64,000 bases of DNA from Hyphomicrobiales bacterium (GTDB taxonomy: Bacteria > Pseudomonadota > Alphaproteobacteria > Rhizobiales > Rhodobiaceae): NCBI GenBank assembly GCA_002869065.1, contig PKTR01000006.1:186001-250000 (forward strand), read 5' to 3'. Each line of letters opens with the position of its first letter. Positions within the stretch are counted from its first letter, which is position 1. Under the pieces are notes generated by a model that had not been told where the DNA came from, did not search any database, and saw nothing but the letters and a program-made list of their open reading frames with translations. This document shows positions 9,617 to 15,529 of this stretch, one piece after another. Made by a program: the position numbers and the translations under genes.

Positions 9617-9652
9617 GCAAATCCTCTATATCTTGCCATATAGGAGATGGTC

Positions 9653-10066
9653 ATGGCGATGTTGCTGCCGATCGATACCGCGCCGCGGGACTTCACGCCC
9701 GACCCCATCACAGACGATGAGGGGGCGGCGATGTTCCGCGCCGCGCTTAATCTCTTCCGGCTCTGGGGCCTGACGGACGGCGAAGCGGCGACGCTGCTCG
9801 ACCTGCCGGTGCGCACCTATCGCCGCTGGAAGACGGGTGAGCTTGGCCGTATCGGTCGCGATGGCAAGGCGCGGCTGTCCAACCTGATGGGCATCCACAA
9901 GGCACTGCGGATCATCTTCCGCGAGCCGCAGCGTGGCTATGACTGGGTTCGCAAGCCCAACGCGGCATTCGGCACGAAGTCCGCGCTCGACATCATGCTC
10001 GGCGGCGAGCTGACCGACCTGATGCGGGTGCGCCGCTATCTCGACGCGGAGCGCGGCGTCTGGTGA
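9653..10066 (+). CDS. Xre/MbcA/ParS-type antitoxin
   Basis: A 137-residue antitoxin of the DUF2384 (MbcA/ParS toxin-binding domain) class. The N-terminal part resembles an Xre-like helix-turn-helix (LFRLWGLTDGEAATLLDLPVRTYRRWK, residues about 33-60), and the C-terminal part has the toxin-binding segment ending in GELTDLMRVRRYLDAERGVW. The ATG at 9653 was chosen because the AGGAG at 9642-9646 is 6 bases upstream; the ATG at 9647 abuts it. The stop overlaps the GTG start of the RES toxin, so the two genes are coupled. Confidence 0.88.
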   Translation: MAMLLPIDTAPRDFTPDPITDDEGAAMFRAALNLFRLWGLTDGEAATLLDLPVRTYRRWKTGELGRIGRDGKARLSNLMGIHKALRIIFREPQRGYDWVRKPNAAFGTKSALDIMLGGELTDLMRVRRYLDAERGVW

Positions 10067-10776
10067 TCGTTTCCGCCGACATCCCGGCAGCGCCGGTCGA
10101 ATGGCCCGATGCCCGCCGCATCATCCGCAGCCTTTATCCTCCCATCGATCTCTTTGAGGATATCGCCGACCCGGCGGACTGGCCGCTGTTGATTGCTGCC
10201 GAGCAAAAGACCAATCCCCGCCTGATGGAGTCGATCGGCAATCTCGACCTGGTGCCGCCGGCTCGCCGCGTCTCTGGATCGGGCGCGAGCTGGCTGATGG
10301 CGCCCTTCGTCCATGTCAGCCGGGATCGCCCGAGCCGGTTTTCAGACGGCGGCTATGGCGTGCTCTATGCAGGGAATGACTTCGAAACGGCGTTGTTCGA
10401 AACCGTCCATCACCATGCGCTCTTTATGGCCGCGACCGACGAGCCAGAGGGATGGACGTCGCAGTTCCGCGAACTCGTGATGACCGTCGACGCGGACCTC
10501 CACGACTTGCGCGGTGGCGGTGGCGCCTACGACGATTTGCTCGATCCCGATGACTACAGTGCCAGCCAGTCGGCTGCCGCGACGCTCCACGCCAGCGGGT
10601 CCGACGGTGTCGTCTATCCGAGTGTGAGAAACGCCGGCGGCGAATGTGTCGGGCTGTTCTATCCCGACCTTGCCGCGAACCCGATCCAGGGACGTCATCT
10701 CGACTACCACTGGAACGGCAGCGCGGTGGATTATTACCGCGATGCCGGGACGGGCAAGGTCTTCGCAATCAGATAG
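10063..10776 (+). CDS. RES-domain toxin
   Basis: A 237-residue RES-domain protein. RES toxins share a fold with ADP-ribosyltransferases and are known to degrade NAD+ or modify targets. The name-giving residues are visible as Arg92 in RPSRFSDGGYGVLYAG, Glu113 in ALFETVHH and the serine in GVVYPSVRN. The start is a GTG overlapping the antitoxin stop (GTGA). The protein is longer than minimal RES toxins, with about 80 residues ahead of the core. The complete conserved set suggests an active toxin kept in check by the upstream antitoxin. Confidence 0.87.
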   Translation: MIVSADIPAAPVEWPDARRIIRSLYPPIDLFEDIADPADWPLLIAAEQKTNPRLMESIGNLDLVPPARRVSGSGASWLMAPFVHVSRDRPSRFSDGGYGVLYAGNDFETALFETVHHHALFMAATDEPEGWTSQFRELVMTVDADLHDLRGGGGAYDDLLDPDDYSASQSAAATLHASGSDGVVYPSVRNAGGECVGLFYPDLAANPIQGRHLDYHWNGSAVDYYRDAGTGKVFAIR

Positions 10777-11831: not shown

Positions 11832-12204
11832 GGAAGATCCGTTCGCGGTTGCGGTGGGTACTGGGCCTTGGGTGGTCCGGGAAGAGGCCGACGATACAAA
11901 AGCCCGGCACCAAACTCAAACAGGTTGCTGCGCCAATATTGCCGGCCGTGGCCGGAGCCGCTGCGCCCTCGCTCGTGTGCGGCGAACCCTCAAACCAGAC
12001 GTATGGTTTCAGAAGAAAACTCGCGAAATACTTGTATTGTTTCTGAATTCATCACGAAAACCGTATGGAAAGTATATTCAAATTATGGAATGTTACAAAA
12101 ATGCGATGTTCGGCAAGAAAATCGAATTCGCTATCGTGTTTTATACAGTTTACGGCGCGGAATTTTGTGATAAGGATTTTTTTCCAAGACTTAGGGGAAA
12201 ATAG
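11832..12204. other. AT-rich intergenic stretch upstream of the VHL-like gene
   Basis: These 373 bases hold no gene I can support. From about 11995 to 12204 the base composition is clearly richer in A and T than the rest of the window, with runs such as GTATATTCAAATTATGG and TTTTATACAG. It presumably holds the promoter of the downstream gene, but several weak -35/-10 pairs are possible and none stands out. The composition suggests acquired DNA. Confidence 0.6.
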
Positions 12205-12606
12205 ATGATCAATATTCTTGCCGCTGCGGTTATCGCGGCGCTGTCGGGTTTTGCATTGCCGCAGGGTCAAGTCGTGACGACGGATGAGGCGCCGCTCGTG
12301 CGTGTCGCGAAGCCGCTGCAGGGACCGAATTGCCCGGCTCCGCGGAGCATTCGCTCGCCAAATTCCAACATCCCGACCCAGGTTCGCTTCATCAACGAGC
12401 TGAACGGCCCCGTCGATCTCTACTGGATCAACTTCAAGGGCGGCTGGAAGAAATACGCGCGGATTCGCCCGGGCGGTTCGTTCAGCCAGCAGACCTACGC
12501 GGGTCATGCCTGGATCGCCTATGATGTGCGCGCGGGCGGTTGCGTTGGCAATAGCCTGTATTTCGCCAAGAAAGATCGCGGCCAGTGGGTCAAGTGGCAC
12601 TACTGA
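12205..12606 (+). CDS. Secreted protein with a VHL beta-domain
   Basis: A 133-residue protein with a signal peptide (MINILAAAVIAALSGFALPQ, about residues 1-20) and a beta domain like that of the von Hippel-Lindau tumour suppressor. Residues 60-107 (from VRFINELNGPVDLYWINF to YAGHAWIAYDV) align without gaps to the human segment from LFCNRS to HLWLF. Positions that bind hydroxyproline in human VHL (Tyr98, Ser111, His115, Trp117) are Tyr84, Thr97, His101 and Trp103 here. Cys43 and Cys113 could form a disulfide. A Shine-Dalgarno-like AGGGGA precedes the ATG. It stands alone with its own terminator, after AT-rich DNA. The bacterial role is unknown. Confidence 0.75.
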   Translation: MINILAAAVIAALSGFALPQGQVVTTDEAPLVRVAKPLQGPNCPAPRSIRSPNSNIPTQVRFINELNGPVDLYWINFKGGWKKYARIRPGGSFSQQTYAGHAWIAYDVRAGGCVGNSLYFAKKDRGQWVKWHY

Positions 12607-14362: not shown

Positions 14363-15358
14363 TCATTCCGCGCCGGCAATCAGAACAGCGGTGCCTCGCG
14401 CGATGACCATTGCTGCGTCGGCGGGCATGCCGGGTGCAATCCGGTGGTCGTAGAGCATGCGCAACGCGCCCGTATCCAGTGGGGAGGGCGTCGTGCGCGT
14501 GCTTCGTCTGGACAGGACTGAGTCGGCGAGCGCGTTCGTTTCTTTCAATCCCAGAGCCCCGAGGAGCGCCGCGTTGAGGCATTTGTCGTCAAATCCCTCT
14601 TCGATGAAGATGTGCGACACATAGAATTTGCCTTCCGCAGCGCCCTTGCGGAAATAGGCGACATGGGATGCGCAGGAAGCGCCGGTTATGTGGTGGTATT
14701 TCGCTCGCCGGATTGCTCACTGGCTGTGGTTGCGGTTGCGCATCAGCTTGTTGAGCAGTGAAATGAGGTCTTTCCGCGTCCCGTAGTGGATCGTGATGTC
14801 TGACGCCTTGAGGCCGAATTTGAACGTGAAGGGAAGATTGCCTTCCAGATTTCTGGCCGCGTCGACGATCCTGGTGAAATAGGCCGGCGGCGTTCCGCCA
14901 CGGTCGGGATTGTAGAGTGGCTTCGCCTCGACGAAGATCCTGACCCGTTTCTGATCCCATTTCTTTGCGAAATTGCCGGCCACGCAGACACCCTCGCTGT
15001 TGCGTGCGACGCAAAGCTTGGCCACGTTCTCGAAGTGCTCGATGAGCTGCTCTTCTTTCAGGTCGTTGGTTTTTTCGTAGAACAGGGACGACGGGGTGAG
15101 GAGGATAGCTGCTGCAGCCAAAGCGGATGCGATGTAGTAAACCCAGATGATCGTCGGTATCGGGGTTTTCGGCGGCGCCTCCCATCGTCCTCGGGTCTCG
15201 ACCGGCGGCCGCATGACCCCGGGGTGAGGGTTCTTCGGAAATTCATGATCTCTTGGCGAACGACGACCGTTCGACGATCGGTTTTCGTTCGGTGGGATAT
15301 ATGCACCACCCCACAAGGCTTTTCGGTCAGGTTCTCTGGGGCGGTCTTGACGGGACAT
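14363..15358 (-). pseudogene. DUF2927-type membrane protein broken by an in-frame TGA
   Basis: A single minus-strand frame of 332 codons is interrupted once, by TGA at 14717-14719 after LMRNRNHSQ. The upstream part has a proline-rich, charged N-terminus, one membrane segment (TIIWVYYIASALAAAAILL) and a domain starting EEQLIEHFENVAKLCVA. The part after the stop reads on in the same frame through YHHITGASCASHVAYFRKG and ends in LYDHRIAPGMPADAAMVIA, which resembles the C-terminus of DUF2927 proteins. CGA to TGA is the simplest change. No SECIS-like context was sought successfully, so a nonsense mutation or sequencing error is most likely. The ATG at 15358 was preferred to a TTG at 15376. Confidence 0.65.
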
Positions 15359-15529
15359 CGTATCGGCAACTGACAATCGAACTTCTACAAAGCTTGCGCG
15401 GTCGATCAGCCCGCGCAGGCCCTAATGTCGGGAGAGTAGCGCAACTGAAACGCGAAAGGCGAGCCTGCCCGATGACGCGGAAGGGGAAAACATCGCGCCC
15501 TGTTCGGTCGTGACCTTGGCGAGGCAGGC

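Follow-up and report, generated by a model that had tools for sequence, protein, structure and literature searches.

A predicted exported VHL beta-domain protein of a Hyphomicrobiales bacterium with counterparts of the human hydroxyproline-pocket residues

The VHL-domain gene and its surroundings

The window, meaning the whole 64,000-nucleotide stretch of DNA that was analysed (contig PKTR01000006.1, positions 186,001 to 250,000, from a Hyphomicrobiales bacterium), carries on its forward strand an open reading frame for a VHL-beta-domain protein of 133 aa (12205..12606), recognised from its translation, a Pfam match (PF01847) and homologues in two congeners. The ATG directly adjoins an in-frame TAG stop upstream, and a Shine-Dalgarno-like AGGGG, read from the sequence, is located 7 bases 5' of it (12193..12197, forward strand). 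An initial reading made from the sequence only (the sequence-only reading) had placed the gene behind AT-rich DNA, which was confirmed, as the upstream intergenic DNA (12000..12204) has a GC content of 0.35 compared to 0.64 for the window. A sigma-70-like site was looked for on the forward strand of this upstream DNA and was not found. The protein gave the only VHL match in its own genome (G000), and a homologue was present in both of the two congeners searched, identical to it at 54% and 56% of 136 aligned positions. Within the domain region dN was 0.27 and 0.25 for the two congeners compared to a dS of 0.61 and 0.64 (dN/dS approximately 0.4), and this ratio indicates purifying selection.

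A conserved operon was not detected; when 18-kb regions from both congeners were searched for 11 genes of the window, the VHL gene alone was recovered. Clustering of neighbouring ORFs (at least 110 aa in length and no more than 5 kb from profile-found VHL genes) also gave no conserved neighbours, with the top cluster among the best 14 reaching 6 families and the next reaching 4. By a motif in its sequence, the 6-family cluster is of the ABC-transporter ATPase type. Elsewhere in the window, on the forward strand (9647-10776), an Xre/MbcA/ParS-type antitoxin (PF20432, PF09722) overlaps a RES-domain protein (PF08808) and the pair looks like a toxin-antitoxin system. On the reverse strand (14366-15376), a short ORF matches DUF2927 over its C-terminal part alone (profile positions 142-201 of 206) and the ORF just upstream on the same strand had no Pfam match at E ≤ 0.001; this locus is possibly a split or decayed gene.

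The VHL-domain protein begins with a hydrophobic N-terminus (residues 1-21; 12205..12267, forward strand) that by hydropathy is a probable signal peptide, its N-terminal 12-mer having a mean hydropathy of 2.57. By eye, no Lys or Arg stands ahead of this 12-mer and a clear AxA cleavage site is absent. Two cysteines that may form a disulfide, Cys43 (12331..12333, forward strand) and Cys113 (12541..12543, forward strand), sit at the edges of the VHL domain, and each is Cys in 75 of the 76 domains found with Pfam. In a second, pattern-found set the two columns were Cys in 57/120 and 68/120 domains, so many members of that set are without the pair. A strongly hydrophobic 12-mer preceded the domain in 67 of 75 frames that were intact at the 5' end. 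The hydrophobic N-terminus together with the cysteines suggests export, and we consider it likely that the protein is exported; the earlier assertion of export gains from the hydropathy and the cysteines, and falls short of proof given the missing Lys/Arg and the unclear cleavage site.

Predicted fold and hydroxyproline pocket

A Pfam-A search assigned the protein to a single family, the VHL beta domain (PF01847; E 4.8e-10, 39.8 bits against a curated cut-off of 21), and an NCBIfam search of the 133-aa protein returned no family. All 24 matches in a sequence search of the PDB (E ≤ 1) were named VHL (best E 1.4e-6), and the family profile searched against the PDB at E ≤ 1 again gave 24 matches that were all named VHL, with no solved bacterial relative. 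AlphaFold2, run on the window protein together with 120 domains taken from pattern-found loci (121 sequences), resulted in a model with a mean pLDDT of 82, with 86-96 in the 10-residue blocks spanning residues 41-133 and means of 53-61 in the first three 10-residue blocks. The best 50 rows of a VIA-align comparison were all VHL entries (Z 12.4-13.7, rmsd 1.3-2.0 Å, 84-88 residues, 26-27% identity) and included 1LQB, 1LM8 and 4AWJ, VHL structures with hydroxyproline ligands. A complete VHL beta-sandwich is predicted to be present, with residues 48-133 (12346..12603, forward strand) equivalent to human VHL 62-153 and superposing on it at approximately 1.5 Å for 86 residues. The sequence-only reading had proposed a VHL beta-domain match and a structural comparison with human VHL; the family and the beta-sandwich fold were recovered by Pfam and by the model, whereas its extent for the domain (residues 60-107) was too short.

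The window protein shares with human and metazoan VHL (1LM8, 1LQB, 4AWJ) the whole beta domain, the five hydroxyproline-pocket positions and the equivalents of N78 and G93. Unlike human VHL, it has a hydrophobic N-terminus and no alpha domain (VHL approximately 155-204, the surface that binds Elongin C/Cullin 2), since the protein stops at the equivalent of VHL 153; lacking this domain, it would not be an E3-ligase subunit. VHL has no Cys pair at the corresponding positions, the window protein has Thr for Ser111, and the outer peptide groove differs, with VHL residues R69, R107, I109 and H110 replaced by N55, F93, Q95 and Q96. By sequence the protein belongs to PF01847; mechanistically it would count as a VHL variant, a reader without a ligase.

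Human VHL strongly prefers hydroxyproline over proline. Its hydroxyproline site consists of Trp88, Tyr98, His110, Ser111, His115 and Trp117, with the hydroxyl bonded by Ser111 and His115, the carbonyl bonded by Tyr98, and His110 making contact via its backbone carbonyl (PMC9528729). All five pocket side chains have counterparts in the aligned window sequence, which are, all on the forward strand, Trp74 for Trp88 (12424..12426), Tyr84 for Tyr98 (12454..12456), Thr97 for Ser111 (12493..12495; a conservative change), His101 for His115 (12505..12507) and Trp103 for Trp117, a residue of both pocket wall and core (12511..12513). The sequence-only reading had the last four of these right, with Thr for Ser at Thr97, and had overlooked Trp74. 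It had also made conservation of its four positions among homologues a test of the idea, and each of them is kept in most Pfam-found domains. Across the 76 Pfam-found domains (from the relatives, order and phylum-wide searches, all used and all distinct), the first position was Trp in 76/76, the second Tyr in 55/76, the third Thr in 66 and Ser in 10 (76/76 together), the fourth His in 73/76 and the fifth Trp in 73/76. All five residues were kept in 53/76 domains and at least four in 73/76. Four of the five pocket positions were among the 8 lowest of 79 columns by entropy, with Tyr84 ranking 17th. The pattern-found set comprised 120 domains (122 pattern matches minus two that were shorter than 75 aa or duplicate); its pattern fixes the W, T, H and W and leaves the Tyr98 position free, and that free position was Tyr in 111/120.

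Because pocket residues by themselves raise the score against the Pfam profile, we built a profile from 32 of 48 representative domains with the five pocket positions masked and ran it on 397 genomes from the order, scoring the best 13 candidates per genome. The masked profile matched in 73 genomes compared to 65 with Pfam, and missed one Pfam-positive genome (G039). It listed 14 places that the Pfam search had not given, two of which keep all five pocket residues and 12 of which do not (E 5e-7 to 3e-20, Cys pair kept in 11/12). Over the 14 additions, the equivalent of His115 was lost in 11 and that of Trp88 in six, with pocket columns aligned less surely in some because of insertions, and the Cys pair was kept in 13. 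For Pfam-found domains and additions combined, all five residues were present in 55/90, so not every family member can bind in the manner of VHL. Since 12 of the 14 additions are without the full pocket and 13 keep the Cys pair, the VHL fold seems to tolerate loss of the pocket, and its retention elsewhere hints at a ligand for which it would be kept.

Some pocket-less domains lie in larger proteins. Five proteins from one genus of the same order (L256-L260, genus g35) have open frames of 839-980 aa with a C-terminal VHL-like domain in which W88, Y98 and H115 are lost and the Cys pair is kept, and form a pocket-less subfamily. Two further proteins (L263 and L264, genome G548) have two pocket-less VHL-like domains each, in open frames that, as fetched, measure 2283 aa (L263, with a reported length of 3179 aa) and 1761 aa (L264).

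Distribution and domain partners

With Pfam, VHL domains were detected in 19 of 101 relatives, in 65 of 397 order-level genomes, covering 33 of 141 genera, in 7 of 398 genomes of a phylum-wide draw and in none of 14 control genomes, with overlap between the samples. Scanning named genomes yielded at least 117 stretches with the VHL-domain pattern. The 80 titles listed covered Alphaproteobacteria, Gammaproteobacteria, Planctomycetes, Verrucomicrobia, Kiritimatiellia, Cyanobacteria, Myxobacteria, Actinobacteria, Blastocatellia (Acidobacteria), Bacteroidetes, Gemmatimonadetes, Armatimonadetes, Chloroflexi and Poribacteria, with some titles grouped by genus name. By BLAST (E up to 10, no composition correction) the human VHL stretch matched 197 of 197 collected domains, the top row showing 41% identity across 61 positions, and the window protein alone gave no match as a query against the genome-contig collection. 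A mobile or viral origin was considered and rejected: phage sequences searched for the domain and viral contigs searched by exact pattern gave no match, and two matches were found on cyanobacterial plasmids. Multiple copies occur in places. VHL domains are tandemly arrayed in a long protein in a Phormidesmis priestleyi MAG (L073 and L078, on one contig), where by eye W-Y-T/S-H-W is kept in five of the six copies of L078 and one is degenerate, and Xanthobacter sp. YC-JY1 (L050) has two VHL-domain frames near each other on the same strand.

Domain partners were compared in two samples. The wide sample held 118 proteins, selected by the pattern (117 found among the matches listed, plus the window protein), in which the partners included DPPIV_N in 8/118, Peptidase_S9 in 7/118, SH3_3 in 5/118 and Peptidase_M90 in 4/118, among the 25 of 65 partner families listed, many of which come from one WD40 protein. 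Matches to metallopeptidase-like models (Pfam names M90/ATLF) were mostly under the cut-off. The VHL domain is N-terminal of the DPPIV_N match in seven of the eight S9 fusions (L054, L061, L097, L101, L105, L123, L150) and located after the peptidase, at the C-terminus, in the eighth (L118), so there are at least two VHL-S9 arrangements. A GxSAGG motif, which we take to be the S9 nucleophile motif, was present in 6/8. Apart from L150, the fusions came from Pirellula (L054, L061), Planctomycetota (L101, L105), Opitutia (L123), Armatimonadetes (L118) and an uncultured bacterium (L097). They have the same domain as the window protein and pocket residues fixed by the pattern, but are joined to DPPIV_N/Peptidase_S9, whereas the window protein stands alone.

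The second sample comprised 75 profile-found proteins, 70 from the order and five from the wider phylum draw, which are closer relatives of the window protein; 73 of them matched VHL at E ≤ 0.001. No S9 partner occurred among the 75, and the only partners were SH3_3 (three), MliC (two), LprI (two), a ricin-type lectin (one) and CVNH (one). With this spread of partner families, the VHL module behaves as an accessory domain for binding, attached to secreted proteins and to proteins of the envelope. As a separate observation, eight proteins (L002, L008, L011, L018, L024, L026-L028) share a recurrent unannotated N-terminal region before the VHL domain with a motif near 'PETD...F...C' by eye, and three of these (L002, L011, L028) had, besides VHL, no Pfam match at E ≤ 0.1.

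Candidate ligands and rival readings

The sequence-only reading had pointed to prolyl hydroxylases as possible neighbours in related genomes, and this was not borne out. The prolyl-4-hydroxylase-type families PF13640 and PF13661 had no match in the protein's own genome, and PF13640 was present in 11/19 VHL-bearing compared to 38/82 VHL-lacking relatives, with no clear co-occurrence. In the 11 relatives with both, the two were on the same contig in three (the closest pair being approximately 39.5 kb apart, in G081) and on different contigs in eight. A prolyl hydroxylase link is not supported, given the two missing families and the unclear co-occurrence. With no such match in the genome, a hydroxyproline ligand, if any, would probably be foreign; a self-made one is unlikely, as judged from these two hydroxylase families. 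Prolyl hydroxylases of this kind are also cytoplasmic enzymes, and the window protein is probably exported. An oxygen-sensing pair on the model of HIF-VHL, in which a hydroxylase of the bacterium itself would modify the proline that the domain reads, is on all these counts highly improbable, even though bacterial prolyl-hydroxylase relatives exist, with Pseudomonas and Vibrio cited (PMC9618697).

The reading that we tentatively place above the others, from sequence and model together, is an exported binder of prolyl or hydroxyprolyl peptides. The gene would encode an exported, disulfide-stapled VHL beta domain serving as a small binding module, with an N-terminus that would direct export and may be cleaved, and a C43-C113 disulfide that would form outside the cytoplasm. 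The pocket would grip a peptide at a prolyl or hydroxyprolyl residue, in the way human VHL does, with W74, Y84 and W103 as putative walls and T97 and H101 as putative partners of the hydroxyl. The ligand would come from outside, for example a plant, algal or animal hydroxyproline-rich protein. As a stand-alone domain the protein might be a periplasmic or surface capture protein, and in some relatives the module would be tethered to peptidases or envelope-protective domains. Hydroxyproline binding by the window protein is plausible; the plant-wall or collagen targets raised in the sequence-only reading are speculation.

The main rival is that the pocket binds a carbohydrate or a peptidoglycan fragment and the protein is a lectin-like module of the cell envelope, perhaps an anti-lysozyme guard. 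An aromatic pocket containing His and Thr suits sugars, and the partners are divided. The S9 (prolyl-oligopeptidase) fusions favour a prolyl peptide ligand; against this, they make up 8/118 of a pattern-selected sample of the matches listed and 0/75 among the closer relatives of the window protein. Partners of the lysozyme-inhibitor and lectin type point to a ligand in the envelope or to a glycan; MliC, LprI, SH3_3, CVNH and ricin-type lectin fusions, which do not indicate proline, are the sole partners in the 75-protein set, and SH3_3 recurs in the wide sample. Envelope and lectin fusions are nevertheless rare, DPPIV_N exceeds SH3_3 in the wide sample (8/118 compared to 5/118, with 25 of 65 families listed), and at the residue level the identity is to the prolyl-peptide pocket, which makes the glycan reading rather doubtful. 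The lost groove residues and the Thr for Ser111, for their part, count against peptide binding in the manner of VHL.

It is less probable still that the pocket residues serve folding alone, in a structural spacer or protein-protein interface without a small-ligand pocket. Conserved Trp, Gly and Cys are common in small folds. W117 and F76 of human VHL are part of an aromatic tetrahedron in its core, and the Y98H change makes VHL less stable (PMC3688787), so part of the pocket conservation, W117 included, may be structural. However, 12 of the 14 masked-profile additions lack the full set of pocket residues and 11 of those 12 still have the Cys pair, and the hydroxyl-contact positions (T/S in 76/76, H in 73/76) are hard to ascribe to packing. 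A chance ORF or spurious Pfam match, for which it can be said that the high-GC DNA also gives a 182-aa ORF on the opposite strand, was refuted by the Pfam score, the homologues in both congeners, the dN/dS and the confident AlphaFold2 model.

Among hydroxyproline readers VHL is the best known, and it often serves as a PROTAC handle. If a family with this pocket is indeed widespread in bacteria, it would set the binding chemistry outside the HIF pathway, suggest a route by which bacteria recognise foreign hydroxyproline-rich proteins, and offer small domains independent of Elongin. PMC9618697 describes the HIF/PHD/VHL pathway as conserved in animals, with none found among choanoflagellates and other protists. 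On a broader view, bacteria of approximately a dozen phylum-level groups would use exported VHL domains to recognise hydroxyproline-bearing plant, algal or animal proteins, sometimes delivering a fused proline-type peptidase; the hydroxyproline pocket would then predate HIF signalling, and in animals an extracellular binding domain of bacterial type would have been taken up into a ubiquitin ligase inside the cell. We regard this scenario as somewhat unlikely.

That bacteria encode a VHL-domain protein is already known in print (PMC9002001). Among the matches listed, and by title and the start of the abstract, this was the one paper on a bacterial VHL domain, and none concerned the pocket or its ligand in bacteria. 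Its subject, EMK97_00595, a hypothetical protein of Litorilituus sediminis, is by its description similar to the window protein in being bacterial and predicted to be secreted with a VHL beta domain, and the paper argues for a tumour-suppressor activity; as far as consulted, it neither compares the hydroxyproline pocket residue by residue nor surveys the bacterial family (PMC9002001). A non-animal VHL beta domain also occurs in a fusion, SELENOM-pVHL of the alga Aureococcus anophagefferens, which resembles the window protein by description and differs in being a eukaryotic selenoprotein (PMC7539508).
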